A DNA stretch of 64,000 nucleotides from contig CACZZL010000004.1 of assembly GCA_902785605.1 (NCBI GenBank), positions 42,676-106,675 of the forward strand, written 5' to 3'. A model generated the notes under the pieces. That model did not search any database and was not told the origin of the DNA. It saw only the letters and a list, made by a program, of their open reading frames with translations. This document shows, piece by piece, positions 1-64,000 of the stretch. Position 1 is the first letter of the stretch. Each line of letters starts with the position of its first letter. Origin of the DNA: an uncultured Bacteroidales bacterium. Its GTDB lineage: Bacteria; Bacteroidota; Bacteroidia; Bacteroidales; Paludibacteraceae. The translations under genes and the position numbers were made by a program.

Positions 1-1
1 T

Positions 2-1654
2 GCATCACAGTGTAACGAGATGGCAATGACGCAGGCTTCGCTGGAGTTGAATGCCGATCATCTGTCGCAAGAGTTTGCTTTGGTTGGTGTTCCGGCAGGT
101 TTGACCTTCACTGCTAAGCACGGTGAGAAGAGCACCCAGTGGGGTACCGGCGCAAGTTATGCTACCTTGGTAGTAGAGCAATATTCGTTCAGAAACGGTG
201 TTTGGGATTGGTATCAGGTATTTAACCAAGTTGTAGGTACAGATGCAGCCAATTACGGCGAGTTTGCATTGGACGAGTCGGCTACGAAGATTCGTTTTGC
301 AACCGGTGAGCGTGCGACGAACCATACGATCACGAACATCCGTGTGCCGCGTAAGAAGTTCATGCGTGCAGATGTAACGGCTATCGATGAGGAAGCAGAA
401 GCGAATGCGATCTGGCAGAAGACGATCACTGTCAGCCACTCGAACATCGACCTGATGACCGTTTCGACGGCTCGTGGTGTGGTTAGCCTGAATACAGCTA
501 CGCTGGGCGAGGGTTGTGGTGACTTCGGCGACGACGCATTCATTGCATCCTTTACGACGACACAGAAGGGTATTGAGTACCTGGATACGATCATTGTTAC
601 CGATGGTAAGGCACAGCCGACCACGTTGCTGATTCCTGTACGTCTGGTAAGTACCGGTTTGAAGCAGCATATTAGCGACTTTGTATTGCCGAAAACGTGT
701 CTGACAACGGATGAAGTGGAAGTGTTGCCGACAACGGCTACGAGTGATCTGGAGGTTGTTTACCTCAGCTCGGATAGCACGATTGCTTATGTAGAGAATA
801 ACCAACTGGTGATCCTCTCTGCAGGTCCGGTACAAATCATTGCTTACCAGGCAGGTGACGAGCGTTTCAACGAGGCTTCGCTCGCTAAGATGATTGAGAT
901 TCAACTGACTCCGAGTCAGATCATTGAGGCTCCTACGGCTACGGAGATGGCTATCGGCGCTCCGCTGAGCATGTCTCAACTCCAAGGCGGTTTGGCTTCT
1001 GTAGAGGGTACGTTCGCTTGGCAGAACCCGGATCAGATTATGAACGAGGGTGGATTTGCTACGGTAGTGTTCACTCCGACGCTGAGCAATATCTATGCTC
1101 CTGCAACGGCAGAAGTACTGGTGCCGGTTGTGGAAAACCCGACTATTTATGTCGAGTACACGGCAGAGTTCTGCGAAGGCGATTCTATCGAACTTTACGG
1201 CGAGATGATGGAGGCTGTAGCAACCGAAGAGGGTGAGCCGATTGAGCTCACGTTCGAAGGCGCTAACCAGTACGGCGGTGACTCGATCGTTTACCTGACC
1301 ATTATTGTACATCAGGCTGAGATGGTGGAGCTTTATGACACCATGTATATTGGTGACACGCTGCGTGTAGAACCGGGTGTTTGGACCGAGAGCGAGTATC
1401 AGATGGTACTGGATCAAGCTGAGTATCCGATGGACGCAGAGAACGAGTTCGAGTTAGTTCAGCATACCCAGACCGAGTTCGGCTGTGATAAGACCATTGT
1501 ATGGTATGTCAAAGTCACGAAGAAGCCGGTAGGAACAGGCATTGAGGATGTACAAAGTGACGATGTACAATGTACAAAGATACTGCGTGACGGTGTGATT
1601 TATATCCGCCGAGATGGCAAAGAATACACCATCACAGGATTGGAAGTGAAGTAA
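2..1654 (+). CDS. Giant secreted surface protein, C-terminal part (5' end outside window)
   Basis: The reading frame is open from the first base, so this is the last 550 residues of a longer protein. It has no catalytic motif. The sequence is rich in Thr, Val and Gly with repeating beta-sandwich-like stretches. Blocks such as FCEGDSIELYGE followed by DSIVYLTIIV resemble the late region of the 2183-aa protein at 3967, so the two look like members of one family. The end (GIEDVQ, then KILRDGVIYI and GKEYTITG) is the short tail often seen at the C-terminus of Bacteroidales cell-surface proteins, which I read as a secretion or anchoring signal. Inside that tail, residues VQSDDVQCTK are encoded by a 32-base repeat that also occurs in dxs. 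An exported adhesin or matrix role is inference. Confidence 0.75.
   Translation, partial: ASQCNEMAMTQASLELNADHLSQEFALVGVPAGLTFTAKHGEKSTQWGTGASYATLVVEQYSFRNGVWDWYQVFNQVVGTDAANYGEFALDESATKIRFATGERATNHTITNIRVPRKKFMRADVTAIDEEAEANAIWQKTITVSHSNIDLMTVSTARGVVSLNTATLGEGCGDFGDDAFIASFTTTQKGIEYLDTIIVTDGKAQPTTLLIPVRLVSTGLKQHISDFVLPKTCLTTDEVEVLPTTATSDLEVVYLSSDSTIAYVENNQLVILSAGPVQIIAYQAGDERFNEASLAKMIEIQLTPSQIIEAPTATEMAIGAPLSMSQLQGGLASVEGTFAWQNPDQIMNEGGFATVVFTPTLSNIYAPATAEVLVPVVENPTIYVEYTAEFCEGDSIELYGEMMEAVATEEGEPIELTFEGANQYGGDSIVYLTIIVHQAEMVELYDTMYIGDTLRVEPGVWTESEYQMVLDQAEYPMDAENEFELVQHTQTEFGCDKTIVWYVKVTKKPVGTGIEDVQSDDVQCTKILRDGVIYIRRDGKEYTITGLEVK
1548..1579. repeat. 32-base repeat word shared with dxs
   Basis: Three ATGTACA units in a row, one of them extended. 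The identical 32 bases occur in inverted orientation at 33207-33238 inside dxs. Both copies are read in the same frame as VQSDDVQCTK. Confidence 0.9.
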
Positions 1655-1673
1655 TTTACGCTGATTAATATGT

Positions 1674-10821: not shown

Positions 10822-11904
10822 TTATTTTAACCCTTTTGCCCATTTGCGAAGATAGACAATCCACTCTGTTGCGTTGGTAGCAACGGGGTGGTTTTCTTTG
10901 GTGGCACCGCAGACGGTGAGGTAGAAGTGGGCTGTCGCACACATTGGTGATTGGTGATTGGAGATGGGTGATTGTTTCAGGATACACAACAGATTCTGCT
11001 TGTCGTGGACGATGTCACCGGCGTAAGGGTAGGGGATGAAGACGGCGAGGCCGACGGTCTCTTTGGCGTACTTGGCGGAGTCGTTCACGGGCCAATCGGT
11101 GCCCCAACTTGCGAGGAGAACACCATTCGGCAGATAGACGACACTCGTATCACATCCTCCCTTGGCAGGGATGGTCTGCACGCCGGTACAGAGACCGGAG
11201 AGGGTGTCGGAGAGAGACACATCGCAACGGAGATCGCGGTGGCCGGCTAACATGGTGTATTGGACGGAGAGGTCCAATAGTTGAGAGTTTAATATTGAGA
11301 GTTGAGAGAAGTCGTTTAGTTGAGAGTTATTAAGTGGTACTTGCCAGCCTTTGACGGCGACCTCGATGGTGGCACTATTCTTTGTTTGTGAGACGATGCG
11401 CTGGGAGCGTTCTGCGACGGGATCAATGTGGACCATCTTGGTGCCGTTCCAGTACTTGACAGAGCCGACACCGACTGTTCCGCTCACGCGGAGGATATCA
11501 TCGCCGTAGCCGAGGGCGAGAAGGCTGTCGTTGGGGTACCAGTGACTTTGAGCGAGTTCGAGCTGCGGCTTGCGTTTGCAGTAGGGATCGATGGTCTGCT
11601 TCTTATCGAAATAGATGCGGTAGGCCATCCATTCGGACTCTACGGCGACACCGTGGTGATGCAATTGGTGGTACGTATCTACCGCAGGGTCGGCTGTCCA
11701 TTCGGTGATGGGGTAGCAGTGCCGCATCTTTGTGCCCTCGTAGAGCACGGCGTAGCCAGAACGGACAGAGTCCGCGGGGGTACCAATCTTCCAAAAGGAA
11801 GTCGCTATGCGCGGCTGGCATGCCGCGCATAGCAGAGCTATTATCGAGATGAAGAGACCTCGAGATCTCGAGATTTCGATGGATTTATTAGTTGATCTTG
11901 ACAT
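10822..11904 (-). CDS. DUF4861 lipoprotein, pectin-degradation associated
   Basis: This 360-residue protein has a lipoprotein signal ending in LLCAACQPR (Cys near residue 29). The body matches the DUF4861 family: YHQLHHHGVAVESEWMAYRI, then YCKRKPQLELAQSHWYPNDS and a long beta-rich C-terminal part. DUF4861 proteins occur in pectin and rhamnogalacturonan loci and are suspected carbohydrate-active enzymes. The reaction is not established here. The start overlaps the end of the GH28 gene by 17 bases, so the two are probably co-translated and act together on pectin fragments. Two repeat islands are read in frame as SQLNDFSQLSILNSQL and SPISNHQSP, so parts of the protein come from heptad repeats. 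Confidence 0.75.
   Translation of the reverse strand: MSRSTNKSIEISRSRGLFISIIALLCAACQPRIATSFWKIGTPADSVRSGYAVLYEGTKMRHCYPITEWTADPAVDTYHQLHHHGVAVESEWMAYRIYFDKKQTIDPYCKRKPQLELAQSHWYPNDSLLALGYGDDILRVSGTVGVGSVKYWNGTKMVHIDPVAERSQRIVSQTKNSATIEVAVKGWQVPLNNSQLNDFSQLSILNSQLLDLSVQYTMLAGHRDLRCDVSLSDTLSGLCTGVQTIPAKGGCDTSVVYLPNGVLLASWGTDWPVNDSAKYAKETVGLAVFIPYPYAGDIVHDKQNLLCILKQSPISNHQSPMCATAHFYLTVCGATKENHPVATNATEWIVYLRKWAKGLK
10943..10974. repeat. Heptad island inside the DUF4861 gene (ATTGGTG units)
   Basis: Units ATTGGTG, ATTGGTG, ATTGGAG, ATGGGTG, ATTG are read on the minus strand as QSPISNHQSP without breaking the frame. Confidence 0.85.
11279..11332. repeat. Second heptad island in the DUF4861 gene (AGTTGAG units)
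   Basis: Units related to AGTTGAG, AGTTTAA and TATTGAG with a 7-base period. Read in frame on the minus strand as an Asn/Ser/Gln/Leu-rich loop. Confidence 0.8.
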
Positions 11905-13426: not shown

Positions 13427-14166
13427 AAGTAACTATTTTTAGGATAAATGATTTCTACTAAGGACAGACCTTCTGCGGGAGCCGAGTGCCCTGCGCGGCA
13501 TCGGTCGTGTGCCGCGATGATGTCCGCCAGTTGTGCGGGAGTCATTCTGCCTTTTCCAACCTCAAAGAGTGTTCCGACGACAGCGCGTACCATGTTTCGC
13601 AAGAACCGGTCGGCGGTGATGACGAAGTACCATTCGGTATCCGACTCCTGCACCCATTTCGCTTCGCGCACATCGCAGATGGTCGTTTTGACATCCGTGT
13701 GGGTGCGGCAGAAGGACGCGAAGTCCTGTTTGCCGAGCAGCGCCTGTGCCGCGTTGTTCATTGCCTCGAAGTTCAGGCCTGCTGCCACGCGTGTGTGGTT
13801 GACGCAGAGGAACGGATCCTTGCGTGTGGTGATGCGGTAGCGGTAGGTACGCGCCGTGGCATCAAAACGTGCGTGTGCATCGTCGTTCACGCGCTGGATG
13901 TTGCGTACGGCGATCGATGCCGGCAGCAGGTTATTGAGTCGGCTGCCAAAGTTGGCGGGCAGCGGTTTGGCAAAATCAAAATGCGCCACCATGTGCTCGG
14001 CGTGCACCCCTGCGTCAGTACGACCGGCGAAAGTGAGGGCAACGGGTTCGCGCAAGATCGTGGCGAACGCGGCTTCCATCTCTGCCTGCACTGTGTTTCC
14101 GTTCGGCTGCGTCTGCGAGCCGTGGAAATGGGTTCCGTCATATGCAAAGGTTATAAAATAGCGCAT
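13414..14166 (-). CDS. truA: tRNA pseudouridine(38-40) synthase TruA
   Basis: This 250-residue enzyme converts uridines 38-40 in the tRNA anticodon arm to pseudouridine. It opens with FITFAYDGTHFHGSQTQPNG and holds the catalytic Asp (about residue 51) in FAGRTDAGVHAEHMV. The C-terminal half has FLRNMVRAVVGTLFEVGKG, typical of the family, and the length is normal. The stop codon lies inside the start of the GH28 gene. Upstream, a repeat island separates it from a flippase gene that ends 36 bases before its start. Confidence 0.96.
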   Translation of the reverse strand: MRYFITFAYDGTHFHGSQTQPNGNTVQAEMEAAFATILREPVALTFAGRTDAGVHAEHMVAHFDFAKPLPANFGSRLNNLLPASIAVRNIQRVNDDAHARFDATARTYRYRITTRKDPFLCVNHTRVAAGLNFEAMNNAAQALLGKQDFASFCRTHTDVKTTICDVREAKWVQESDTEWYFVITADRFLRNMVRAVVGTLFEVGKGRMTPAQLADIIAAHDRCRAGHSAPAEGLSLVEIIYPKNSYLCEN

Positions 14167-14167
14167 T

Positions 14168-14232
14168 ATGATGTACGATTTACAAATTTACGATGTACGA
14201 TTTATTTACGATTTAACGAATTTACGATTTGG
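14168..14232. repeat. TACGATT/ATTTACG heptad island at the flippase-truA junction
   Basis: Degenerate 7-8 base units. Positions 14174-14205 are a 32-base word identical to 15710-15741 and 22609-22640. The island runs through the flippase stop codon, so the last residues (QIVNSLNRK) are encoded by repeats. Confidence 0.9.
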
Positions 14233-15701: not shown

Positions 15702-15770
15702 ATTAAATTTACGATTTACAAATTTACGATGTACGATTTATGTACGATTTTGTTTATGTACGATTTGCGC
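15702..15770. repeat. TACGATT heptad island between FKBP lipoprotein and flippase genes
   Basis: Same unit family as 14168-14232 and containing the identical 32-base word (15710-15741). It fills nearly the whole 89-base gap. Confidence 0.9.
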
Positions 15771-17041: not shown

Positions 17042-17076
17042 TTCAAATTTATGATTTATGATTTATGATTTTTGAA
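17042..17076. repeat. ATTTATG heptad island between the two FKBP genes
   Basis: ATTTATG three times in a row plus degenerate flanks, filling the 35-base gap. Confidence 0.85.
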
Positions 17077-17661
17077 TTACTCGATTCCTAACAGTTCTAC
17101 GGTGAAGATGAGGGCAGCGTAGGGCGGGATAGAAGCTCCGGCACCGCGCTCGCCGTAAGCCAGTTGGTACGGGATGAAGAACTTGTACTTCGAGCCGATC
17201 GACATGAGTTGCAGACCTTCGGTCCAACCCTTGATCACGCCGTTGAGCGGGAACGTGATGGATTCGCCGCGACGGTAGCTGCTGTCGAAGACAGTGCCGT
17301 CAATGAGGGTACCTTCGTAGTGTACACGTACGGTGTCGGTTGCTTTGGGTTTCTGACCTAACGAGGGTTCGAGGATCTCGTACTGCAAACCGCTGGCGGT
17401 CGTCTTGACGCCTTCGCGTTTTGCGTTCTCAGCCAAGAACTTCTCGCCTTCTGCTTTGGCAGCGCCGGCTACTTTGGCTTCCAACTCCTGGAAGAACTGA
17501 TTCAATACTTGTTGTGCCTCTTGGTAGGTGATCTTCGGCTGTGCGTGTGTCAGCACATCTTCGATGCCGGCTGCGAGATCCTGATAGTTCAGTTTCTCCA
17601 CACCGCTACCCATGAGGTTTTGTCCCATAGAGAGACCTAATGCATAACTGATTTTGTCCAT
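17077..17661 (-). CDS. FKBP-type peptidyl-prolyl isomerase, cytoplasmic
   Basis: This 194-residue protein has no signal peptide. It opens MDKISYALGLSMGQNLM with a helical dimerisation domain to about residue 85. The FKBP domain follows with [39 protein letters not shown] and [13 protein letters not shown]. This is the FklB/Mip layout, here without export, so it should act on cytoplasmic proteins. The FKBP domain is nearly identical to that of the lipoprotein 36 bases downstream, which makes the two a cytoplasmic/envelope pair. It starts 8 bases after the riboflavin synthase stop codon. Confidence 0.93.
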   Translation of the reverse strand: MDKISYALGLSMGQNLMGSGVEKLNYQDLAAGIEDVLTHAQPKITYQEAQQVLNQFFQELEAKVAGAAKAEGEKFLAENAKREGVKTTASGLQYEILEPSLGQKPKATDTVRVHYEGTLIDGTVFDSSYRRGESITFPLNGVIKGWTEGLQLMSIGSKYKFFIPYQLAYGERGAGASIPPYAALIFTVELLGIE

Positions 17662-18298: not shown

Positions 18299-18332
18299 TA
18301 TTTATGATTTCAAATTTCAAATTTATGATTTC
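18299..18332. repeat. ATTTATG/ATTTCAA heptad island at the flippase-ribE junction
   Basis: Units ATTTATG, ATTTCAA, ATTTCAA, ATTTATG, ATTTC. The same order recurs at 43129-43159 upstream of ispG. The island overlaps the flippase stop. Confidence 0.85.
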
Positions 18333-20432: not shown

Positions 20433-20457
20433 TCAGTATTCAGTGTTCAGTGTTCAG
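20432..20457. repeat. TTCAGTG heptad island between rsmI and the coiled-coil gene
   Basis: TTCAGTA, TTCAGTG, TTCAGTG, TTCAG. It fills the 21-base gap between the two coding regions. Confidence 0.85.
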
Positions 20458-22604: not shown

Positions 22605-22645
22605 TATTTACGATTTACAAATTTACGATGTACGATTTATTTACG
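22605..22645. repeat. Third copy of the 32-base TACGATT island
   Basis: 22609-22640 is identical to 14174-14205 and 15710-15741. It fills most of the 59-base gap between ilvE and the peptide transporter gene. Confidence 0.9.
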
Positions 22646-23666: not shown

Positions 23667-23687
23667 TCTTTCACTCTTTCATTCATC
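23660..23687. repeat. TTTCATTC 8-mer island over the ilvE start
   Basis: TTTCATTC, TTTCACTC, TTTCATTC and ATC. On the minus strand the last unit supplies the ilvE ATG and its first codons. Confidence 0.8.
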
Positions 23688-40425: not shown

Positions 40426-40458
40426 TGGCTTTGAGGGGGTGTCAAACCTTTGCGGCTG

Positions 40459-40490
40459 CAAAGGTACGGTTTTTTTCTGAGATATGCAAG
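40459..40490 (-). promoter_or_regulatory. Promoter of the FAD oxidase-TPR pair
   Basis: On the minus strand: CTTG (40490-40487), 20 bases, TACCTTTG (40466-40459). It lies directly behind the terminator of the lipoprotein gene. Confidence 0.85.
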
Positions 40491-43107: not shown

Positions 43108-43162
43108 AATGGTTAATGTTTAATATTAATATTTATGATTTATGATTTCAAATTTCAAATTG
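43108..43162. repeat. ATTTATG/ATTTCAA heptad island between pfp and ispG
   Basis: Units GTTAAT, GTTTAAT, ATTAAT, ATTTATG, ATTTATG, ATTTCAA, ATTTCAA, ATTG. A 23-base word is shared with 18301-18323. Confidence 0.9.
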
Positions 43163-43169
43163 TCTTTCG

Positions 43170-44713: not shown

Positions 44714-47497
44714 TTACCCCATCACAATGTTAACGATTCGACCTGGCACAACGATGATCTTCTTGATCGCTGCACCGTTGAGGTACTTAGCGGTGTCTTC
44801 GTGTGCAAGGACGAGTTTCTCCACTTCCTCTTTCGGGGTGTCCTTCGGGCACTCGAAGGTGTAACGCACCTTACCGTTGAACTGAACCGGGTACTTCTGC
44901 GTGTCCTCGACGAGGTACGCTTCGTTGCACTCGGGCCAAGCCGCGTCAATGACAAAACTATTGTTGCCGCATTGATGCCACATCTCTTCTGCGATGTGCG
45001 GAGCGTACGGCGCCATGAGAACAGCTATCTGCTCGAGGACAGCGCGTTTGTTGCACTTGAGGGCACTCAGTTCGTTTTGCGCGATCATGAAGGCCGGGAT
45101 AGAGGTGTTGAACGAGAAGTTCTCGATATCCCACGTGATCTTCTTGATCAGTTTGTGCAGACTGCGCAATTCCTCTTTGGTCGGTTCGGCCTCTTCGATA
45201 TGCTCGTACATGTTCCACAGACGTTTGAGGAAACGGTGTACACCGTCGATTCCGTTGGTATCCCAGGGTTTGGACATCTCCAGCGGGCCGAGGAACATCT
45301 CATAGAGACGCAGCGTGTCGGCACCGAACTTAGCGATGACATCATCGGGGTTGACGACGTTGAACATGGACTTGGACATTTTCTCCACGGCCCAGCCGCA
45401 GATGTACTGCTTCGGTCCGGCGGTGTAACCCGTCAGTTCGGACGAGGTGCCGTCGGCGAAGACGAACTCGGCGTTCTTGAACTCCGGCATCCATGCCCGG
45501 AAAGCGTTGATGTCCAGCACGTCGTTGTTGACGATGTTGACGTTGACATGAATCGGCTGCACTTTGTCCTTGTACTCCGGATTCTCAATGAGGTTATACG
45601 ATATATAGAGGTTACCCGTTGCCCCTTCGCCGATGTAGCGATAGACGAAGTTGGAGCGACCTTGGATCATACCCTGGTTGATCAGTTTCTTGAACGGTTC
45701 GTCCTCGCATACATAACCGAGGTCGTAGAGGAACTTGTTCCAGAAACGGCTGTAGATGAGGTGTCCCGTGGCGTGCTCCGAACCGCCGAGATAGAGGTCC
45801 ACCTGGCGCCAGTAGTCATTGGCTTGTTTGGAGACGAGCGTCTGGTCGTTATGCGGATCCATGTAACGGAGGTAGTAAGCACTCGAACCGGCAAAGCCCG
45901 GCATGGTGCAGAGCTCTAACGGATAACCTTTGTATGTCCAGTCTTTGGCGTTACCCAACGGAGGACGACCGTCCGAAGTCGGTTTGAAGTCCGATACCTC
46001 GGGTAGTGTGATCGGCAGGTCTTGCTCATCGACCGTGTAGGGCATGCCGTCCTTGTAGTAGATGGGGAATGGCTCGCCCCAATAGCGCTGGCGGGAGAAG
46101 ATCGCGTCGCGCAGACGGTAGTTGACCTTAACCCGACCGATGCCCGTGTTGGTGATATACTCTTTCATCGCCTGAATAGCGTCCTTGACCTCCATGCCGT
46201 TGAGGAAACCGGAGTTGATCATCTTTCCTTCCTTGGCATCGAACGACTGCTCGGATACGTCTGCCCCTTCAATCAGCGGAATGATCGGCAGGTTGAAGTG
46301 ACGCGCGAAAGCGTAGTCGCGGCTGTCGTGTGCCGGAACCGCCATGATTGCACCGGTGCCATAGCCGGCCAGTACGTAGTCGGATATATAAATAGGTATC
46401 TCGCCCTGCGTGAGCGGGTTGATGGCATAGGAGCCGGTGAACACACCTGTCACCTTACGGTCGGCTATTCGCTCCCGCTCGGTGCGGTTCTTGCAACGTG
46501 CGAGGTAAGCGTCCACTTCCTCCTTGTGCTCCGGTGTCACCACCTTGGCCACATACTCGCTCTCGGGTGCCAGTACCATGAACGTCACACCAAACACGGT
46601 GTCTGCACGGGTGGTGAAGATGGTCATGGACAATTCTTCATTTTCCTTGGTACTTGGTACTTTGTCCCTTTGTACCTTAAATACCATCTCCGCACCTTCT
46701 GAACGACCGATCCAATTACGTTGCGTCTCCTTGAGGGAGTCGGTCCAGTCGAGTCGGTCGAGTCCTTCGAGCAGACGGCCGGCGTATGCGCTAACGCGCA
46801 GACACCACTGACGCATGACACGTTGCTCTACCGGGAAGCCACCACGGACGGAGAGTCCTTCGGACACCTCATCGTTCGCGAGCACCGTACCGAGAGCAGG
46901 GCACCAGTTCACTTTGGTGTCCGCCAGGTAGGCGATTCGGTAGTTCATGAGCCGCTCCTGCTGCTCTTTCTCGGAGAGCGTCGCCCACTTGGGGTCGTTC
47001 GCTTCCCATTCGGCGATCAGTTTGGAGATAGGCTGTGCCTTCTGGGTCTTGGGGTCGAAATAGGAGTTGAACATCTGCACGAACGCCCACTGGGTCCAGT
47101 GGTAGTACTTGGGATCGCAGGTACGGATCTCACGGCTCCAGTCGTAACAGAAACCGATCTTCTTGAGCTGCGATATGTAACGGTCGATGTTCTCAAAAGT
47201 GGTCTTCTCCGGGTGTTGTCCTGTCTGGATAGCGTACTGCTCAGCGGGCAGACCGTAGGAGTCAAAACCCATGGGGTGAAGGACGTTGAATCCTTTTTGC
47301 CGTTTGTAACGGCTGTAGATATCCGAGGCAATATAGCCCAGCGGGTGACCGACATGCAGACCTGCGCCCGAGGGGTAGGGGAACATATCCAACACGTAGT
47401 AGTGCGGCTTGTCGGATTCATTGGAGACGGTATAAACGCCGTTCTCATCCCACGCTTTTTGCCACTTTTTCTCAATGTCACTAAAGTTGTATTCCAT
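44714..47497 (-). CDS. leuS: Leucyl-tRNA synthetase
   Basis: This 927-residue class I synthetase charges tRNA-Leu. The start is set at [20 protein letters not shown]; eight upstream codons in frame reach into the promoter region. HIGH motif: [16 protein letters not shown]. The editing (CP1) domain has [20 protein letters not shown] and [20 protein letters not shown]. The KMSKS loop is [17 protein letters not shown]. In the editing domain, residues [16 protein letters not shown] replace a short turn of other LeuRS proteins; they are encoded by a repeat island (46645-46679). Promoter at 47519-47550. Confidence 0.97.
46645..46679. repeat. GGTACTT/TTTGTCC island inside leuS
   Basis: Units of 7-8 bases (TTGGTAC, TTGGTAC, TTTGTCCC, TTTGTACC) in the editing-domain coding region. 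Related to the TTTGTAC units in dxs and in the signal peptides at 59283, 61071 and 62467. Confidence 0.85.
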
Positions 47498-47518
47498 ACT
47501 TAAAAACAAATTTGCGTG

Positions 47519-47550
47519 CAAATTTACTACTTTTTTTTGAATTATGCAAG
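47519..47550 (-). promoter_or_regulatory. Promoter of leuS
   Basis: On the minus strand: CTTG (47550-47547), 20 bases, TAAATTTG (47526-47519). Leader of about 15 bases. Confidence 0.85.
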
Positions 47551-51161: not shown

Positions 51162-53171
51162 TTACAATAATTTCTTTACTTGGTCATAGACGTTCTGGGC
51201 GGTGAAGCCGAGTTTCTCGTCAAGGACCTTGTACGGAGCAGAGAAACCGAAAGAGTTGAGACCCCATATAGCACCGTTCTCGCCGACGAGGCTCTCGAGT
51301 GTGCACGGCAGGCCGGCTGTCATACCGAAGCGTTTGATGCCCTTCGGCAGCACTTCATCCTGATATTTCTTATCTTGGAGACGGAACAGTCCTTCACTCG
51401 GCACGCTGACGATCTGCAGACGGATGCCCTCTGCGCGCAGCAGTTCGGCACCGGCGAGCAGGGTAGAAACCTCAGATCCGGAAGCCAGCAATACGACTTG
51501 CGGGTTCTCGTCTTTGGAAACGATATACGCACCTTTGCGGAAGCCTTCGAGGTTGACGTTGGGCACCGGAGCGATATCCTGACGGCTGAGGATGAGGGCA
51601 GTCGGAGTAGCAGTGTTCTCGATGGCTGCACGCCAAGCGAGCGTGGTCTCTTCGGCATCGGCCGGACGGAGTACCAGCATCGACGGAGCACCGTGGTGGT
51701 TGTGCAGTTTCTCCATCAGACGGATCTGTGCCTCTTGCTCTACCGGCTCATGGGTCGGACCGTCCTCACCTACGCGGAAGGCGTCGTGCGACCAGATGAA
51801 CTTAACCGGCAGCTCCATGAGGGCAGCCATACGAACAGCGGGTTTCATATAATCGCTGAACACGAAGAACGTACCGCAAGCGGGGATGATACCACCGTGG
51901 AGGGCCATACCGATCATGACGCACGCCATGGTGAGTTCGGATACACCGGCTTGGAGGAACTGGCCGCTGAAGTCGCCTTTCTTGAGGGCATGGGTCTTCT
52001 TGAGGAATCCGTCGGTCTTGTCGGAGTTCGACAGGTCGGCAGACGAAACGATCATATTGCCCACGTTCTCAGCGAGGAACGAGAGGACCTTACCGCTGGC
52101 ATTACGGGTTGCATCACCGGCTTTCTGCTCGATGAGGCTCCAGTCGATGCACGGCACTTCTCCGGCCATGAAAGTCTCGTATTCATTAGCTGCCTGCGGG
52201 TTGGCTTGTGCCCACTCGTGGTAAGCGACGTAGCGCTTGTTGCACAATTCGCGCAGTTCGGCTGCACGGTCGTCATACAGTTTCTTCACTTCGGGGAAGA
52301 TCACGAACGGATTGGTCGGGTCGCCTCCGAGGTGCTCGATGGTCTTCTCAAACGAAGCGCCGGCTTTGCTGAGCGGAGCACCATGCGTGGAGCACTTGCC
52401 TTCCCAGTTAGCACCTTCCGCGGTGACGCAGCCCTTACCCATGGTCGTGTGACCGATGATGATAGACGGGCGACCTTTCTCCGCTTTGGCTTTGACGATG
52501 GCCTGACGGATGGCGTCGGGATCATTGCCCGGGATCTCCTGTACGTACCAACCCCAAGCTGCGTACTTAGCGGCTACATCTTCGGAGGTCACTTCGCCGC
52601 AACCTGTGGAGAGTTGGATGGTGTTGGAGTCGTAGAACATAACGAGATTATCCAAACCCAGGTGGCCTGCCAGACGGCCTGCACCTTGCGAGATCTCCTC
52701 CTGCACGCCGCCGTCCGAGATGAAGGCGTAGATAGTCGGGTTGTGGATGGCACCGTAGCGTTGGTTGAACCATTTGGCAGCAATCGCTGCACCGACAGCG
52801 AAGGTATGACCTTGACCCAGCGGACCGGAGGTGTTCTCGATCATACGCTCGATCTCACGCTCGGGGTGACCCGGGGTGACTGAACCCCATTGACGGAGGT
52901 TCTGGAGGTCCTCGAGGGTGAACTTACCGGCGAGGCATAACTGTCCGTAGAGCATCGGTGCCATATGACCCGGGTCGAGGAAGAAACGGTCACGTGCCTC
53001 CCAACCGGCGTTGTCCGGATCGTACTCCAGGAACTCCGAGAAGAGTACATTGATGAAGTCTGCGCCACCCATAGCTCCGCCCGGGTGACCACTCTTAGCT
53101 TTCTCTACTGCTGCTGCGGCCAGGATGCGAATGTTGTCCGCCGCGCGATTCAATAACTGTGTTTGGTTCAT
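51162..53171 (-). CDS. tkt: Transketolase
   Basis: This 669-residue thiamine-diphosphate enzyme moves two-carbon units in the pentose phosphate pathway. It has SGHPGGAMGGADFINVLFSE and DPGHMAPMLYGQLCLAGKFT at the N-terminus, then the ThDP loop ISDGGVQEEISQGAGRLAGH with YDSNTIQLSTG. The pyrimidine domain has WSHDAFRVGEDGPTHEPVEQ. Length and layout are normal. It lies behind DUF6048 with a repeat-filled gap and is probably the last gene of the run from 54400. Confidence 0.96.
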   Translation of the reverse strand: MNQTQLLNRAADNIRILAAAAVEKAKSGHPGGAMGGADFINVLFSEFLEYDPDNAGWEARDRFFLDPGHMAPMLYGQLCLAGKFTLEDLQNLRQWGSVTPGHPEREIERMIENTSGPLGQGHTFAVGAAIAAKWFNQRYGAIHNPTIYAFISDGGVQEEISQGAGRLAGHLGLDNLVMFYDSNTIQLSTGCGEVTSEDVAAKYAAWGWYVQEIPGNDPDAIRQAIVKAKAEKGRPSIIIGHTTMGKGCVTAEGANWEGKCSTHGAPLSKAGASFEKTIEHLGGDPTNPFVIFPEVKKLYDDRAAELRELCNKRYVAYHEWAQANPQAANEYETFMAGEVPCIDWSLIEQKAGDATRNASGKVLSFLAENVGNMIVSSADLSNSDKTDGFLKKTHALKKGDFSGQFLQAGVSELTMACVMIGMALHGGIIPACGTFFVFSDYMKPAVRMAALMELPVKFIWSHDAFRVGEDGPTHEPVEQEAQIRLMEKLHNHHGAPSMLVLRPADAEETTLAWRAAIENTATPTALILSRQDIAPVPNVNLEGFRKGAYIVSKDENPQVVLLASGSEVSTLLAGAELLRAEGIRLQIVSVPSEGLFRLQDKKYQDEVLPKGIKRFGMTAGLPCTLESLVGENGAIWGLNSFGFSAPYKVLDEKLGFTAQNVYDQVKKLL

Positions 53172-53185
53172 GATGTGTATTGTTT

Positions 53186-53220
53186 TAAATTTTCAATCTT
53201 CAATCTTCAATTTCTTCAAA
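53186..53220. repeat. TTCAATC heptad island between DUF6048 and tkt
   Basis: TTTTCAATC, TTCAATC, TTCAATT, TCTTCAA. It touches the DUF6048 stop codon. Confidence 0.85.
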
Positions 53221-53815
53221 ATCTCCACCCGAGGTAGTAGTTGGCTCCCCAACCGATCTTGTCGCGGTTGCCGAAGCCGGGGATGTAATCGGGGTTGAAG
53301 TATCTCTCCTGCCGTGTGAACAGACATTTGAAACGTCCCATCCACCCCATGTAAAAAGACATAGACCGTTCGCCTTTCGCCGTTTGCCACTCGCCTTTAT
53401 ATATCTCGACCTGGCAGCCGGCAACAATCTCTCCCCAGCAGTCGGTGTAACCACCTTCTTGCACCGCTGTTGCGCATCGAACTCCGACAAGCAGGGCGTG
53501 CGGACTCTCCGGGTGCTTCTTGAGCGGGTTGAGGTCACAGCCGAGGCGCATGAACCCGCCGTTGGTGGCGTAGCCGAGTTCGGCCGTCGGGTACCACCGC
53601 TTTGCCAGCCGTACGTTCACCGCTACCTCATAATGCTGCTTTTGCCACTGATGGGTTGCCGGCGTGAGGATGGGCGAGGCGATGTCCAGTTTGACTTGGG
53701 TGCCGTTGTAGATGGTGTCGTTCTTTGCGAAGGAAAATGAAAAATGAAAAATGAGAAATGAAAGGAATATCCATCCTAACACCCGATGCGAATATATGCC
53801 TTTTTCATCTTTCAT
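53216..53815 (-). CDS. DUF6048-like outer-membrane barrel protein
   Basis: This 199-residue protein starts with a signal peptide whose core (FLSFLIFHFSFSFAKND) is encoded by AAAATGA heptads. The mature part is beta-rich with outer-membrane alternation: NGTQVKLDIASPILTPATHQ, YEVAVNVRLAKRWYPTAELG, GGFMRLGCDLNPLKKHPESP, and a terminal aromatic YYLGWRF. This matches small Bacteroidetes barrels of the DUF6048 type, role unknown. The segment YKGEWQTAKGERS is encoded by another island (53366-53398). It follows the conserved membrane protein gene at 53838. Confidence 0.75.
   Translation of the reverse strand: MKDEKGIYSHRVLGWIFLSFLIFHFSFSFAKNDTIYNGTQVKLDIASPILTPATHQWQKQHYEVAVNVRLAKRWYPTAELGYATNGGFMRLGCDLNPLKKHPESPHALLVGVRCATAVQEGGYTDCWGEIVAGCQVEIYKGEWQTAKGERSMSFYMGWMGRFKCLFTRQERYFNPDYIPGFGNRDKIGWGANYYLGWRF
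53366..53398. repeat. GCCTTTC heptad island in the DUF6048 gene
   Basis: Degenerate TTCGCCT, TTCGCCG, TTTGCCA, CTCGCCT units. Read on the minus strand as KGEWQTAKGER. Confidence 0.75.
53730..53762. repeat. AAAATGA heptad island encoding a signal-peptide core
   Basis: AAAATGA three times, then GAAATGA. On the minus strand it encodes the hydrophobic FLIFHFSFSF. Confidence 0.85.
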
Positions 53816-53843
53816 CCTTCATCTTTCCTCTTTCATCTTACAT
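53803..53843. repeat. TTCATCT heptad island at the DUF6048 start
   Basis: TTCATCT, TTCATCC, TTCATCT, TTCCTCT, TTCATCT. On the minus strand it provides the DUF6048 ATG. Confidence 0.85.
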
Positions 53844-54377
53844 CAGCGATTTGGCTTCGTCTTTGAGCATCTCCAGCGCTTTCTCCGTGGGCGTGGTGCC
53901 GTTGGAGGCATACGCGGTGAGGAGGGTGGTGGCGTAGGTCTGTGCCGTAGCGTTGGCAGGGATCTGCGTGGTCATGGAGATGATGAACGATGCCGTCTGG
54001 TCACGCGCACTGACGATTGCGTCCCACACTTCGTCCGACACATAGACCTGCTGACTCTGGTTATGATCAAACTCCAACCGAATGGTCTGCAGCAGGTACT
54101 GCTGTAACTGTGCAACGGTCCAAACGCTCAGCGCCTCGGGTTCTTTGGAACGCAGCTCCATAAGCATATGTTCGGGTTTGGTGCGCTCCAAAAGGAGTGC
54201 CAAACGCTCGTACGCGCGCAAACGAATAGGCGACACAGATTTCTGGGATTCCCGCTTGAGTTCGAACTGGCGCTTGCGCTCCTCGTTCTTGAACTGCGAG
54301 TGCTGGATGAACCAAAAACCGAATATCATCATCGCCACAATGGCGAGAATTAAAACGATCATCTCTGTTGTAAACAT
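53838..54377 (-). CDS. Conserved Bacteroidota membrane protein (DUF7935-like)
   Basis: This 179-residue protein has one N-terminal membrane helix (IVLILAIVAMMIFGFWFIQH). A basic/acidic coiled segment follows (QFKNEERKRQFELKRESQKS), then a helical domain with RLRAYERLALLLERTKPEHM and SQQVYVSDEVWDAIVSARDQ. This is the pattern of a widespread Bacteroidota family without known function, usually inner-membrane anchored with the domain in the cytoplasm. It has a clear promoter and is followed by DUF6048 after 22 bases. Confidence 0.8.
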   Translation of the reverse strand: MFTTEMIVLILAIVAMMIFGFWFIQHSQFKNEERKRQFELKRESQKSVSPIRLRAYERLALLLERTKPEHMLMELRSKEPEALSVWTVAQLQQYLLQTIRLEFDHNQSQQVYVSDEVWDAIVSARDQTASFIISMTTQIPANATAQTYATTLLTAYASNGTTPTEKALEMLKDEAKSLM

Positions 54378-54431: not shown

Positions 54432-54476
54432 ATTTTAATAATTTTTTATTAAAATAATCATTCTTTTCCTACTTTA

Positions 54477-54526
54477 GCCAATAACCATAAGCCATTAGCC
54501 TTTCGACCATTAGCTTTTTGTGCCAA
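54477..54526. repeat. AGCCATT heptad island between divergent promoters
   Basis: AGCCAAT, AACCATA, AGCCATT, AGCCTTT, CGACCATT, AGCTTTT. Placed in the 180-base gap before the levan locus. Confidence 0.8.
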
Positions 54527-59000: not shown

Positions 59001-59204
59001 AAACTGCGAAACCTGCAGCTGGGCTATAACCTGCCCAAGACTGCGTGCGACAAGATGAAAATGCAAAACTGGCGTTGGTTCGTGTCGGCGCAGAACGTAT
59101 TCACTATCCACTCGGCGAAGTTCACCGGTGTCGATCCGGAGGTGCCTACGTTCGGATATCCGATCCCGTTAACCGTAACCTTGGGAACGAAAGTAACTTT
59201 CTAA
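56085..59204 (+). CDS. SusC/RagA-type TonB-dependent outer-membrane transporter
   Basis: This 1039-residue protein has a signal peptide ending FAQAQ. A carboxypeptidase-regulatory-like domain (VTATGVVVDAATGEPIIGAS) covers about residues 23-100. A TonB-box-like region leads into the plug (VVVTGYTTQRKADLTGAVSA and VPGMNISADGNPSGTATVRI), and a 22-strand barrel ends in LTVTLGTKVTF. It imports oligosaccharides captured by SusD and the surface binding lipoprotein. By gene order (SusC-SusD-DUF4960-GH32) the substrate should be levan or other fructan; this is inferred from the Bacteroides levan locus. It is the first gene behind an AraC-like operator. Confidence 0.95.
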   Translation: MNSKSVILAFLWMLCFTAFAQAQVTATGVVVDAATGEPIIGASVLEEGTSNGTITDFDGNFSLSVGNDAMVVISYVGYKTQQLFPNANMKVSLAEDSEVLEEVVVTGYTTQRKADLTGAVSAISAKDLEKQQESNPMKALQGKVPGMNISADGNPSGTATVRIRGTGSLNSSNDPLYVIDGVPTTSGMHELNPNDIESIQVLKDAASASIYGSRAANGVIIITTKKGSEGKLSVSLDASVAVQNYVNRMHVLNSEQFGRAMWQAYVNDGTADPNTNVLGYRYDWGYNEQGQPVLNNIMLNKYLDAAGTVPVSNTDWFAETTRPGVIQNYNISVSNGGKKGSAFFSLGYYKNDGIIKTTNFDRFSARVNTDYKMLNDIVTIGENFTLNRTSEVGAPGGYIESVLQYNPLLPVYTTNGDLAQAPSSSGFPQRENPLSILERNKDNRYTYWRLFGNVFININPIKGLNIRTTAGIDYAQKKQRFFTYPITEGVVANDKNAVEAKQEHWTKWMWNAIITYDLEIGKHRADFLLGTELNRQIDEWFSAYKEDFIVLNPTYMWPSAGTGIAQAYGGSGSFSLISFFGKANYSYDNRYLVSLTMRYDGSSRFGKNNRFAFFPSVSAGWRISQEKFMAGANSWMDDLKLRVSWGQTGNQDINATARYTIYDSNYGVNENGGQSYGTSYDIAGTNGGGILPSGFRRTQIGNDDIKWETTTQTNVGLDFSFFKQTFYGSFDWFYKQTKDILVLMTGIGVMGEGASQWVNAGAVDNMGVEFQLGYRNQTKGGFKYDISANISHYDNKVIDMPATVAASGAFGGNGVQSVVGHAIGSQVGYIADGIFKSQEEIDNHAYQEGAGLGRIRYRDINGDGMVSEADQTWIYSPIPAVAFGANFYFEYKGFDLTLFFQGVGGQQVITKDFKQQTDLWSGVNVANLNKGTRVLDAWSPSNPDSDIPALSTNNNNNETRVSTYFVEDGSFLKLRNLQLGYNLPKTACDKMKMQNWRWFVSAQNVFTIHSAKFTGVDPEVPTFGYPIPLTVTLGTKVTF

Positions 59205-59260
59205 GTTGAAAGTTTAAAGTTGAAAGTTTAATGAAGTTTAAAAGTTTAAAGTAGAAAGTT
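59202..59260. repeat. AGTTGAA/AGTTTAA heptad island between susC and susD
   Basis: AGTTGAA, AGTTTAA, AGTTGAA, AGTTTAA and degenerate copies fill the 56-base gap up to the susD ATG. Confidence 0.9.
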
Positions 59261-60982
59261 ATGAAAACATTCAATAAAATAGCCTTTGTACTTTGTGCAT
59301 TGTTCCTTTGTGCTTCCTGTGACAGTTTTCTGAACCAGGATGTGCCGCAAGCAACGCTGAGCGAGGAGCAGGTCAATGACCCTCAGTATATCGACAATAT
59401 CTGTATCTCCGCGTATGCAATCTTCATCTCTGCGGAGGATATCAACTCGTCCTTCTCGATGTGGAACTTCGATGTCCGCTCCGACGATGCTTACAAAGGC
59501 GGTATCTCGGAGAACGACGGTGATGTCTTTCACCAGTTAGAGGTGAGCCAGGGTATATTGACGACCAACTGGAATATCAACGACATGTGGGTGCGTCTGT
59601 ATAACTGTCTGAGCCGTGTCAACGCCGCCATCGCTGCATTGGATGCCATGGATGACAGTTATGAACTCAAAGAGCAACGTCTGGGCGAAATGAAGTTCTT
59701 GCGTGCGTATGGTCATTTCCTGCTCAAACGGTTGTACAAGAATATCCCCTTTGTCATGGATCCGCTGATGAAACAGGCGGACTATAACGAGTTGAGCAAC
59801 ACCAAATATACCAATGACGAAGGATGGCAACTTATTGCTGATGATCTTGAATATGCGTACAGCGTATTACCTGCTACCCAGGCGGACAAAGGCCGTCCGA
59901 CGCAGGCGTCAGCAGCTGCATTGCTGGCGAAGGTGTATCTGTATAAGGCTTACCATCAGGACGATCCCGCTTCGCATCAGGTGACCGAGATCAACCGTGA
60001 CGATTTGGAAAAAGTGCTTCAATATACCGAGGAGGGTATCTATACCGCCGGCGGTTATGGCTTGGAGGATGATTTCCATAATAACTTCCGTCCGGAGCCA
60101 CAATATGAGAACGGCAAGGAGAGTCTTTGGGCGATGCAATACTCGACCAACGACGGTACGAACTTAGGTAACTGTAACTGGTCTTACGGCTTGATGGTAC
60201 CGGGTATCGAAGGCGTGACGGATGGCGGTTGTGATTTCTACAAGCCGAGTCAGAACCTCGTTAACGCTTTCCGTACCAACGCCGAAGGGCTGCCCTTCAT
60301 CGACACGTTCAACGACAAGGATTTCGATCCTTCCACTGACAATGCTGACCCCCGTCTGTGGCTGACTGTAGGTATAGCCGGTTTCCCGTATGAGTTCAAC
60401 CCGAACCTCATCATGAGCCGTACGCATAACTGGAGTCGTTCCAATGGTCTGTATGGTTATCACGTGACTCTGAAACACAACGTGGACCCGGAGAGCGGTT
60501 ACCTCATCCGTTCTGCCCTGTGGTTCGGTACGCCGATGAACCGTATCGTCGTCCGCTACGCAGACGTACTGTTGATGCGTGCGGAGGCCATGGCTCAACT
60601 GGGACGTGACGCTGAGGCTATCGAACTGGTTAACCAGCTCCGTAACCGCGCATCGCGCAGTATTGGCATGCTTGCCGGATATGACACCAACTACGGAGCC
60701 AAGATCCGCGTCAAACCCTATACCGACTATTCGAACGCACTGGCGAAAGTGAAGATGGAGCGTCGTCTGGAGCTTGCGATGGAGAGCGAGCGTTTCTTCG
60801 ACCTCGTGCGTTGGGGCGAAGCGGCGCAGGTGATCAACAAGTATTACGTAGAGGAAGCAAACGACTGCCGTATCTATACCTCTGCTTCTTTCACCGCCAA
60901 TAAAAATGAGTATCTGCCTATTCCTCACGAGCAGGTATCCGCCTCCAACGGCCATTATAAACAAAACATAGGAGGATGGTAA
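59261..60982 (+). CDS. SusD/RagB-type glycan-binding lipoprotein
   Basis: This 573-residue surface lipoprotein has lipobox LCASCDSF (Cys 21). The family core is clear: RVNAAIAALDAMDDSYELKE, LGEMKFLRAYGHFLLKRLYK, the RPTQASAAALLAKVYLYKAY helix pair, and a C-terminal SusD-like part with VRYADVLLMRAEAMAQLGRD and RRLELAMESERFFDLVRWGE. It forms the lid on SusC. The signal-peptide core FVLCALFLCASC is encoded by TTTGTAC-type repeats (59283-59316), the same as in the next two genes. Confidence 0.95.
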   Translation: MKTFNKIAFVLCALFLCASCDSFLNQDVPQATLSEEQVNDPQYIDNICISAYAIFISAEDINSSFSMWNFDVRSDDAYKGGISENDGDVFHQLEVSQGILTTNWNINDMWVRLYNCLSRVNAAIAALDAMDDSYELKEQRLGEMKFLRAYGHFLLKRLYKNIPFVMDPLMKQADYNELSNTKYTNDEGWQLIADDLEYAYSVLPATQADKGRPTQASAAALLAKVYLYKAYHQDDPASHQVTEINRDDLEKVLQYTEEGIYTAGGYGLEDDFHNNFRPEPQYENGKESLWAMQYSTNDGTNLGNCNWSYGLMVPGIEGVTDGGCDFYKPSQNLVNAFRTNAEGLPFIDTFNDKDFDPSTDNADPRLWLTVGIAGFPYEFNPNLIMSRTHNWSRSNGLYGYHVTLKHNVDPESGYLIRSALWFGTPMNRIVVRYADVLLMRAEAMAQLGRDAEAIELVNQLRNRASRSIGMLAGYDTNYGAKIRVKPYTDYSNALAKVKMERRLELAMESERFFDLVRWGEAAQVINKYYVEEANDCRIYTSASFTANKNEYLPIPHEQVSASNGHYKQNIGGW

Positions 60983-61018
60983 TGAATAATGAATAATGAA
61001 TATTGAATATTGAAAAAA
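60980..61018. repeat. AATGAAT heptad island between susD and the DUF4960 gene
   Basis: AATGAAT three times, ATTGAAT, ATTGAA. Starts at the susD stop codon. Confidence 0.9.
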
Positions 61019-62438: not shown

Positions 62439-62444
62439 TACGTT

Positions 62445-64000
62445 ATGAAAACCAAGAAAATCATATCCTTTGTACTCTGTACAATGTTCCTTTGTACCTT
62501 CCTGACTTCCTGTCAGGAGAATATTCCGCAGGAGCAAAAGGACTGGGAGAATATCACTACCTATTTCAATGCGTCCGATGAGGCAGGAACGACTACCTAT
62601 TATATTCCTTCCGCAGGTTCTGTAGGTGACCCCTTGCCTTTCTTCGACCCGGTAGCGAAGGATTACAAGATCCTTTATCTCCATAATTTCGAGCAAAATA
62701 TGGAGGAGACTTTCCACCCCTTGTGGGGCATCCGTACTACCGATTGTGCTACCTATACCTCTATGGGCGAAGTGCTGCCTACCGGTCGCGCCGGAGAGCA
62801 GGATGCAGCCCTCGGTACCGGTTGTGTAGTCTATGACGAGGCGCAGAAACTGTACTATATCTACTACACCGGCGAGCGCTACAAACCCGCTGCTGACGAA
62901 GACCGCCAAGTCGTGATGCGCGCCACTTCTCCGGACTTTAAGACATGGACCAAGGATCAGCTCTTCCGTCTGCGTGGAGGTGACTACGGCTATAGCACGC
63001 TCAATTTCCGCGATCCGTATATCTGGAAGATGGAGGACGGCTATCACATGATTGTCGCTACCAAACCGATGCCTGCGGGTTCGCGTGCCGAAGACAAAGA
63101 CGGTTGCTTCGCAGAGTTCGTCTCTACCGACCTGCAGACCTGGGAACACAAAGGTGTCTTCTCCAAAATGGTGTGGGATCGTTTCTTGGAGTGTCCCAAT
63201 GTGTTCAAGATGGGTGACTGGTGGTATCTGACCTATAGCGATATGAGTGCCTTCGAGCGCCGTGTGCACTATCTCAAAGGGCGTACCATCGACGAACTCA
63301 AATCCGCTACTGCTCCCCATTGGCCGGACAGCAAAGAGGGCGCATTGGACGGTCGTGCTTTCTATGCCGGCAATACTGCCTCCGACGGTACCGACCGCTA
63401 TATATGGGGATGGTGCCCCGAGCGTCGCGGTAAGGACAACACGGATATCAGTCCGGATGCTGAGCCTAAGTGGGGCGGTACCCTGGTGGTGCATCGTCTG
63501 ATGCAGCGCGAGGATGGTACGCTCTATACCGCTGAGGTGCCTGCTATCCGTACCAAATACAACCAAACGGCTACCCTCAAACCCGTGAAGAAATGGGGTG
63601 AGGAAGAGGGTAATCTCACCATTGCGGACGATGTTTATTCCATGAAGGCTTATAGCTCCGTCATGTTCAACACCCTCGGCTACCACAACCATATCTCCAT
63701 GACCGTCACCACCGCTGACAAAGCCGACCGATTCGGCATCTCCTTCGTCCGCGGCGACCGCAAAGACGGCGACAAGACCTACGAGAAATACTACAGCATC
63801 ATGGTCTGCCCCGACGGCAATAATAACTATATCCGTTTTGAAGAGGAGCAGGGCAAATGGGAACTCAAAGGCGGTGGTAGCTATCCTTTCCCGATTCCTG
63901 CGGACAGAACGTATAATATCAACATCTATACCGACAACTCCGTGCTTGTAATGTATATCAACGACGTGCTCACTTATACCCAGCGTATCTATGGCATCCA
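62445..64000 (+). CDS. GH32 fructan hydrolase lipoprotein (levanase type; 3' end outside window)
   Basis: Open for 518 codons to the window end. Lipobox FLTSCQEN (Cys 24). The five-bladed propeller motifs of family 32 are visible: VGDPLPFFDP with the nucleophile Asp near residue 70, LNFRDPYIW (RDP transition-state Asp) near 195, and FLECPNVFKMGDWWYLTYSD (ECP, acid/base Glu) near 252. From about residue 400 a beta-sandwich GH32 C-terminal module begins (YSSVMFNTLGYHNHISMTVT). As a lipoprotein after the DUF4960 protein, it stands where BT1760, the surface endo-levanase, stands in Bacteroides. The signal peptide is encoded by TTTGTAC units (62467-62500). Confidence 0.9.
   Translation, partial: MKTKKIISFVLCTMFLCTFLTSCQENIPQEQKDWENITTYFNASDEAGTTTYYIPSAGSVGDPLPFFDPVAKDYKILYLHNFEQNMEETFHPLWGIRTTDCATYTSMGEVLPTGRAGEQDAALGTGCVVYDEAQKLYYIYYTGERYKPAADEDRQVVMRATSPDFKTWTKDQLFRLRGGDYGYSTLNFRDPYIWKMEDGYHMIVATKPMPAGSRAEDKDGCFAEFVSTDLQTWEHKGVFSKMVWDRFLECPNVFKMGDWWYLTYSDMSAFERRVHYLKGRTIDELKSATAPHWPDSKEGALDGRAFYAGNTASDGTDRYIWGWCPERRGKDNTDISPDAEPKWGGTLVVHRLMQREDGTLYTAEVPAIRTKYNQTATLKPVKKWGEEEGNLTIADDVYSMKAYSSVMFNTLGYHNHISMTVTTADKADRFGISFVRGDRKDGDKTYEKYYSIMVCPDGNNNYIRFEEEQGKWELKGGGSYPFPIPADRTYNINIYTDNSVLVMYINDVLTYTQRIYGI
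62467..62500 (+). repeat. TTTGTAC-type units encoding the GH32 signal peptide
   Basis: TTTGTAC, TCTGTACAA, TGTTCC, TTTGTACC. Parallel to 59283-59316 and 61071-61103 in the two preceding genes. Confidence 0.75.

Follow-up and report, generated by a model that had tools for sequence, protein, structure and literature searches.

Degenerate heptad repeats that appear to rewrite parts of conserved proteins in a Bacteroidales genus

The window analysed here, a stretch of 64,000 nucleotides (64 kb) of contig CACZZL010000004.1 from an uncultured Bacteroidales bacterium of the Paludibacteraceae, contains many short, degenerate tandem arrays, commonly of 7-nt units, which lie between genes and in frame within them. 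The arrays appear to be a restless repeat that rewrites parts of conserved proteins. We consider it probable, at roughly 60%, that they belong to a genome-wide population of degenerate heptads, which turns over by slippage and by ectopic templated copying between arrays, at sites where such sequence is tolerated.

Period-7 arrays are far above chance. Tandem Repeats Finder (TRF), run on the window with a minimum score of 30, returned 71 rows at 53 distinct places, 28 of which have a period of 7 or 14. Fifty dinucleotide shuffles of the window gave a mean of 7.1 places (maximum 15), with 0.96 of period 7 or 14 (maximum 3); the corresponding values for 50 shuffles in which the codons were kept but not their order are 12.0 (maximum 20) and 1.12 (maximum 4). 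The original prediction held that heptad islands are denser here than in shuffled sequence, and would have been abandoned at a density no higher than that of dinucleotide-matched shuffles; the islands are real, with 28 places against about one in either type of shuffle, although many of the shorter ones among the 35 it counted lie near or under the TRF threshold. It also placed arrays inside Dxs, LeuRS, LepB, MBOAT, an FAD oxidase, DUF4861 and DUF6048, and in each of these a TRF array coincides with a Pfam assignment. In the window, 13 exact lag-7 runs reach 10 bases or more, versus 0.06 in the shuffles, and 8 reach 12 or more, versus none in 50 shuffles. Runs of at least 8 bases are also in excess at lags 8, 9, 11, 12, 14–16, 18, 20–22 and 24, the excess at multiples of 3 being partly due to coding periodicity; lag 10 is barely raised (3 versus 0.9), and lags 4, 5, 13, 17, 19 and 23 are not raised. 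A lag-identity scan of the window alone finds 13 period-7 arrays, or approximately 20 per 100 kb.

Chance as an explanation is already refuted. An origin in chance or faulty assembly has next to no probability: comparison was among draft genomes, each in several to many contigs, and most named relatives are metagenome-assembled genomes (MAGs), which would leave room for artefact, but the arrays exceed two shuffle controls approximately 25-fold or more, identical arrays are present in separate genomes, and period-7 arrays are seen in named MAGs from several series. As for the proposal that the islands be sought in an independent assembly, the same array in the FAD-oxidase loop described below is identical in the separate genomes G017 and G075, a comparison that is itself drawn from draft assemblies.

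The source genome (G000) is a draft of 2.08 Mb in 28 contigs, whose nearest named relatives are MAGs labelled Bacteroidales or Paludibacteraceae, many with rumen names. The lag-identity scan of 457,581 sampled bases identified 124 period-7 arrays, covering approximately 1.2% of the sample. The resulting density of 27 per 100 kb is biased upward, as 12 of the 20 stretches were picked for matches to ATTTACGATTTACG; the shuffled background, based on one shuffle per locus, is 0.02 arrays per lag per 100 kb. Period 7 ranks first, followed by 11 and 8, and periods 5, 10 and 13 are rare. Eleven sampled congeners have 5 to 23 period-7 arrays per 100 kb (the sampled contigs of G007 and G035 also contain ATTTACGATTTACG matches); the value for named congeners, whose loci were pooled (0.35 Mb), is 18. 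The density is 6.6 per 100 kb at 63 other named loci (1.2 Mb), many of them from herbivore guts by title; L016, grouped with other Bacteroidales loci, shares its FAD-oxidase loop with the congener G107 and is probably that genome. Across 20 sampled genomes of other families in the order (250 kb), the arrays are at background, with 2 arrays, or 0.8 per 100 kb, not above other lags. The prediction that units recur at distant loci is borne out by ATTTACGATTTACG, which occurs 18 times in the source genome, where its reversed control is absent. It is present in 17 of 61 genomes, comprising 15 of 37 in the genus and 2 of 24 outside it, and the reversed control is found in none. As a separate observation, L079, a Bacteroidales locus from horse faeces outside the genus, shows very high numbers of runs of at least 9 at lags 7, 14 and 21 (16, 23 and 17, respectively, in 22.8 kb).

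Rates of array gain, swap and loss are measurable, since a single protein loop is readable across dozens of species. A CGTACAT array at 38300..38345 (minus strand) encodes, according to an alignment and a structure model, an unstructured loop of an FAD-oxidase/4Fe-4S protein (gene 37558-40461). The model of this region has a mean predicted local distance difference test score (pLDDT) of 83.7; the array stretch is without helix or strand, with block pLDDT values of 59–73, and the flanks of the loop are nearly invariant, with residues such as IP before and DEFT after the same throughout. The loop was read at 110 loci, some genomes being present twice. Of 28 genus genomes, including the source, 12 have a lag-7 score of at least 10, a level reached by 0.05% of 8,400 shuffles. 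In 13 the loop holds an array with a period of 7, 8 or 15, and 11 unit labels are represented among them. The close relatives G087 and G026, which are 91% identical at this gene, carry loop units of 7 nt and 8 nt, respectively; over the loci compared, the similarity of G087 to G026, G122, G099 and G018 is approximately 91–92%. In a tree of 28 of the 30 genus loci (L226 was omitted for its coordinates and has no lag-7 score listed; L224, which is partial, has a lag-7 score of 12), the loop unit hardly tracks the branching. The loop arrays differ among congeners, and the earlier suggestion that the repeats spread into coding DNA is supported to the extent that they are present there and turn over. 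In none of 62 out-of-genus loops (L017-L068, L070-L077, L079 and L080) do the two best lags listed include lag 7 at a score of 10, and 8-nt arrays are present in L070 and L072. The same protein has a second variable stretch, in alignment columns 21-46, which precedes the CLACKAC cysteines and is long and different in L212, L219 and L220.

Comparison of other sites rests on orthologous-flank mapping, which yielded relatives for 8 of 25 window islands and 4 of 28 window junctions, these being the ones covered by the sequence retrieved from relatives. An AAATCAT/AAATTTG array (43107..43165) fills the junction 3' of gcpE; the gap at this junction (43107/43170) is 62 bp with heptads in the source genome versus 4 bp in G104, 7 bp in G003 and 8 bp in G015, and in G115 the gap is 57 bp long and holds other sequence, repetitive in part. 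An in-frame heptad array at 46645..46678 (minus strand) lies where the editing domain of LeuRS begins (gene 44714-47521, assigned with Pfam). Among the best 14 matches, the source genome has 34 nt of heptads at this site, G118 and G122 each have 28 nt made up of other units, and ten others have 7 nt. A second in-frame array of the FAD-oxidase/4Fe-4S gene, with the unit ATGCTGA (39457..39495, minus strand; TRF), corresponds to 27–42 nt with no evident heptad array in the 14 relatives listed. At the upstream junction of transketolase, several relatives carry other arrays in place of the TTCAATC one (53171..53211), and G035 has a different unit in place of the TTCGCCT array within the DUF6048 gene (53369..53398, minus strand; TRF, Pfam).

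Turnover can be followed at closer range in G017 and G075, which align mostly at 94–98% identity, with some blocks at 80–92%. Comparison was made at 24 repeat sites of G075, with periods of 6 to 15 and both flanks mapped, the classes being read from the listed pairs. Seven sites are identical, seven have base changes only, six differ in length and four carry an unrelated array or none. The length differences are 14 nt, 42 nt, 8 nt (seen at two neighbouring sites) and two of 3 nt; differences of whole units are attributed, as is standard, to slippage. The flanks of the four replaced sites are 90–100% identical. At one of these, a 78-nt array in G017 matches another array approximately 80 bp away over 54 nt at 92.6% identity, and the match takes in a non-heptad GTGCCTCTGGGCAC stretch (a hairpin). 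The neighbouring array is also present in G075, where the site itself carries a different array. This is one clear ectopic array copy. Hairpins of the form GTGCC-N3-6-GGCAC stand beside heptad arrays at L251 and L252 (G017) and at L242 and L243 (G075). As a general companion of the arrays the hairpin was rejected, since among the scanned genomes it adjoins arrays only in G017 (4 of 5) and G075 (2 of 4), with 0 of 2 in the source genome.

The 124 arrays of the source genome represent 44 unit classes, the largest being AACCCGT (18), AAAAATT (16) and AAATCGT (11, inflated by the choice of stretches), and the leading classes differ in other species. Across 12 genomes and 278 arrays, class sharing is 0.052 within genomes versus 0.014 between them, the maximum in 2,000 permutations being 0.035. 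Matches to CTTTCGACTTTCGA, which overlap within an array, range from 0 to 182 across 18 genomes, with 0 in four and 90 in G087, whose loop has this unit. Matches to AATAATCAATMATC are highest in G017, G075 and G124 (10, 4 and 4, loop matches included; others 0–2), all of which have such loop units; when the loop matches are subtracted, G017 is still highest, with G075 and G124 level with the rest or just above. Loop units thus tend, though not strictly, to match the amplified units of their own genome, in two of three tests. The order of variant units is also common to arrays beyond what within-array shuffles give, in the AAAAATT, AACCCGT and AAATCGT families (P 0.0005 or less). A tally of 30 island pairs carries no weight here, as at least one of them is trivial, its islands being overlapping neighbours, and the tally has no null expectation.

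The position of the arrays relative to genes was analysed in the source-genome sample, where a home-made caller gave 345 genes. Forty-eight arrays are in genes, 38 are intergenic and 38 lie over a gene edge. Array density is 134.7 per 100 kb of non-coding sequence, edge-crossing arrays counted, versus 12.0 per 100 kb of coding sequence; this placement is in part definitional, as a stop-free array behind a gene would count as gene. Units at junctions often hold sense-strand stop codons, so that an array behind a stop is nearly free. Since 7 is not divisible by 3, an array within a gene passes through all three reading frames and has to be free of stops in each. We infer that arrays persist only at nearly neutral sequence, namely stop-to-start gaps and unstructured protein loops. 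Eighteen of the 54 arrays at co-directional junctions start 1–4 nt inside the upstream stop codon, and 21 start more than 8 nt beyond it; 20 reach to within 15 nt of the next start or run into the start codon, and 39 are A-rich on the sense strand. The last two counts could point to a selected regulatory or translational element, with the arrays acting as spacers or binding sites that tune downstream translation, a role proposed for the TAACTGA repeats of Beggiatoaceae. Such a role is unlikely as the explanation, given the 48 arrays within called genes, the three relatives that have no array at the junction 3' of gcpE, the replacement of units at some sites, and the occurrence of arrays in convergent gaps as well (13 of the 74 with both neighbours called).

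It could also be that each array grows from a resident heptamer by purely local slippage, and that units recur since only some heptamers slip or are tolerated, the rule of tolerance being stop codons in all frames between genes and none inside genes. The plain changes of unit number between G017 and G075 would be expected, as would the arrays that begin inside a stop codon, and among longer repeats heptads are the most frequent class, or an over-represented one, across many bacterial genomes, according to the available text of two papers citing a 2007 study (PMC4679880, PMC4692102). The TTTCATC array that spans the stop/start junction 53815/53838 (53803..53844; TRF, flank mapping) seems to be locally seeded, and one unit family shows no sharing of order. 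Local slippage as the whole account is nevertheless doubtful, as it does not provide for species-specific amplification of units, for an order of variant units common to loci in three of four families, for wholesale replacement of arrays between genomes as close as G017 and G075, or for a 54-nt copy that carries passenger sequence.

Several observations weigh against a population maintained by slippage and copying. The first heptad of the array at 53803-53844 resembles the native ATGTAA of relatives, which fits local seeding, and the AAAGTTG family is without order sharing (observed 1, expected 0.9). G126 has the highest number of matches to CTTTCGACTTTCGA (CTTTCGA; 182), yet its loop carries another unit; AATCACCAATCACC (AATCACC), the loop unit of G035, is not amplified in that genome (3 matches, versus 37 in G127 and 15 in the source genome). 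The FAD-oxidase loop tree takes 12 label changes, the minimum being 11, and the mean for shuffled labels is little higher, at 12.9; the labels are strict, near-identical units such as AATAATC and AATCATC being counted as different. The GTGCCTCTGGGCAC hairpin passenger also occurs elsewhere in G017 and G075, where the match extends over just 21–25 nt, and the array swap between this pair is unpolarised. Period 7 is not dominant everywhere: lag 8 exceeds lag 7 in G104, and lag 11 does so in G014. No copying enzyme was identified in an enzyme search that covered three repair genes. These genes are kept in nearly all congeners, with RecJ matched in 58 of 61 genomes (36 of 37 in the genus), XseA in 57 (35 of 37) and MutS1 in 60 (36 of 37), so that simple loss of these genes, tried as a cause, was rejected. 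The genus XseA (exonuclease VII large subunit; G000:C14:1219-2268 and congeners) has frames of approximately 358–455 aa, shorter than most outgroups, with a break in the match near model positions 280–302.

Under the preferred reading, of a heptad population turning over by slippage and ectopic copying, replication slippage would gain or lose whole units. Array sequence would be copied onto another array site by short-tract, microhomology-type template switching or recombination, displacing the resident array, and recurrent copying would amplify a few units per lineage. Arrays would survive only at nearly free sites, where they would determine the spacer or, in a protein loop, the residues encoded. 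Period 7 may be favoured if DNA loops of 7 nt escape mismatch repair, or because it matches the polymerase contact. A correspondence of heptad size with polymerase contact is a published idea, found in the available text of PMC4679880 and PMC4692102. For copying between arrays, the outcome is seen at one site and there is statistical support; for its enzymology, we infer the events just described.

It had been suggested earlier that the repeat is either slippage-driven or selfish. Slippage is supported by the 14-, 42- and 8-nt differences between G017 and G075. The selfish part stands only in the sense of dispersal, for which the evidence is species-specific unit amplification, order-preserving sharing in three of four families and one ectopic copy; neither a function encoded by the repeat itself nor an enzyme that moves it turned up in the search, which covered the three repair genes. 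A further-reaching form of the idea is a tentative possibility, in which the arrays would be non-autonomous mobile repeats competing for sites, with trans-acting copying, lineage bursts, and rewriting of LeuRS, Dxs and the FAD oxidase from non-coding-type DNA. Inspection of the listed arrays by eye showed no shared flanks of the kind expected of a transposable element or miniature inverted-repeat transposable element. Dedicated machinery, for example a template-directed polymerase or a reverse transcriptase that makes and inserts arrays, is very unlikely: period 7 is strongly favoured in most sampled genomes, with 8 and 11 next, and unit vocabularies differ between species, both of which would suit it, but no candidate gene was found, none having been searched for, and ordinary slippage with template switching could yield the pattern. 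The arrays offer a natural experiment on the origin of new coding sequence from repeats, and on ectopic copying of tiny DNA tracts as a force that shapes compact genomes.

The remaining arrays of the window, located with TRF unless noted and with gene assignments from Pfam, are distributed along its length. The DUF4861 gene (10822-11904, minus strand; PF16153) contains an AATCACC-class heptad array at 10943..10974 (minus strand; period 7, score 50) and an AGTTGAG heptad/14-nt array within the same open frame at 11276..11308 (minus strand). ATTTACG/ATGTACG arrays are present where a polysaccharide-synthesis gene meets a tRNA pseudouridine synthase gene (14166..14230) and at junction 15698/15788 (15705..15762), and an ATTTACG array at junction 22596/22656 (22606..22639); a non-uniform 25-nt stretch of the first recurs in the other two, with 1 mismatch. 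An ATTTATG array lies between two FKBP genes (17047..17079), and an ATTTCAA array at junction 18293/18323 extends into a stop codon (18307..18324). The ATTCAGT array TGAACACTGAACACTGAATACTGAATG (20431..20457) occupies a 21-bp stop-to-start gap and provides both the stop and the start codon, and an array of the 8-nt unit TCTTTCAT spans junction 23666/23679 (23659..23684). Internal arrays include TTCGCCT in the LepB/Peptidase_S26 gene (24185-25558), with merely 2.3 copies; a perfect 14-nt repeat, TATTGGAGATTTGA, in the open frame of the MBOAT gene (26844-28961), with 2.3 copies at 28452-28483; and two in-frame arrays in Dxs, TTGTACA (33209..33239) and CCATTAG (33739..33769), both on the minus strand. 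An AAAATGA array lies close to the 5' end of the DUF6048 gene (53734..53763; TRF, flank mapping), and a TTAGCCA array upstream of gene 53838-54377 (minus strand) at 54474..54514. On the plus strand, an AAGTTGA/AAAGTTTA array runs from stop codon to start codon and is followed by a CTTTGTG array in the start of a SusD-like gene (together 59203..59315); a TAATGAA array begins at the stop codon of this gene (60980..61014). Two further observations concern frames that have no Pfam match: gene 20454-21032 contains 21-nt and 36-nt repeats at 20732-20877, and a 2183-aa open frame (3967-10518) has 11-nt arrays close to its start (4002-4044).

Heptameric short tandem repeats had been said to be known from cyanobacteria, and dispersed or degenerate heptads are indeed described there, as also in Geobacter. 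The cyanobacterial heptads of the tRNA-Leu intron (PMC3488679) resemble the present arrays in being degenerate, in changing copy number, in having two repeat classes at one site and in lying inside a conserved RNA gene; as far as the available text describes them, they occupy RNA genes and spacers and belong to few classes, whereas here the sampled genome holds dozens of classes of unit and arrays also lie in frame in protein loops. The heptanucleotide elements of Geobacter metallireducens (PMC2700814), with 49 copies within and between genes, are likewise dispersed, multi-copy heptad blocks; in the portion of that paper available they form a four-unit element with one GC-rich consensus, plus a class of five-unit sites, and turnover is not described. 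The GGGAATC and GGGGA(C/T)T repeats of Xanthomonas and Nostoc (PMC4692102) are similar as intergenic heptads that vary in length and sequence among relatives but, according to the available sections, are unlike the present arrays in being G-rich, quadruplex-forming and mostly retained between the same genes.

The comparison closest in lineage is with TAACTGA direct repeats, reported from Beggiatoaceae, cyanobacteria and five Bacteroidetes, including two sets in Paludibacter propionicigenes, a member of the Bacteroidales and Paludibacteraceae (MacGregor 2015, PMC4679880). These are also heptads upstream of start codons, with stops in all frames and some copies within open reading frames, and mobility was considered for them; as to placement, the present counts are 20 of 54 co-directional arrays near or into a start codon and 48 of 124 arrays inside genes. 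In the available part of that study there is a single unit, related heptamers are rare in the main genome, coding copies are mostly at protein ends and Paludibacter has two sets, whereas the present arrays have many units, occupy internal loops and are replaced between close species. The TAACTGA class, AACTGAT when rotated, is not among the 44 found in the source genome and has a single occurrence in G035. Given the Paludibacter sets, the statement in the original prediction that no counterpart of this kind is known from Bacteroidales is not fully accurate. Nothing matching the present arrays in scale, in diversity of units or in the rewriting of loops was found in the literature searched, to the extent that its text was available.

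As in heptanucleotide short tandemly repeated repetitive sequences and long simple sequence repeats, period 7 is far above chance here and copy number changes by whole units (14 and 42 nt). The described cases have few fixed units per genome, not a strict criterion, in contrast to 44 classes among 124 arrays in the source genome. In the literature searched, which covered few subscription journals and was in part available only as partial text, no bacterial genus is described in which one genome harbours dozens of heptad units and close species carry different ones at shared sites, protein loops included, and the present repeats are therefore judged to go beyond the described heptad cases. The usual view of bacterial short tandem repeats is of contingency switches or of slippage tracts with a fixed unit; in the present case it is the unit that varies between close relatives at one site, conserved enzymes included.

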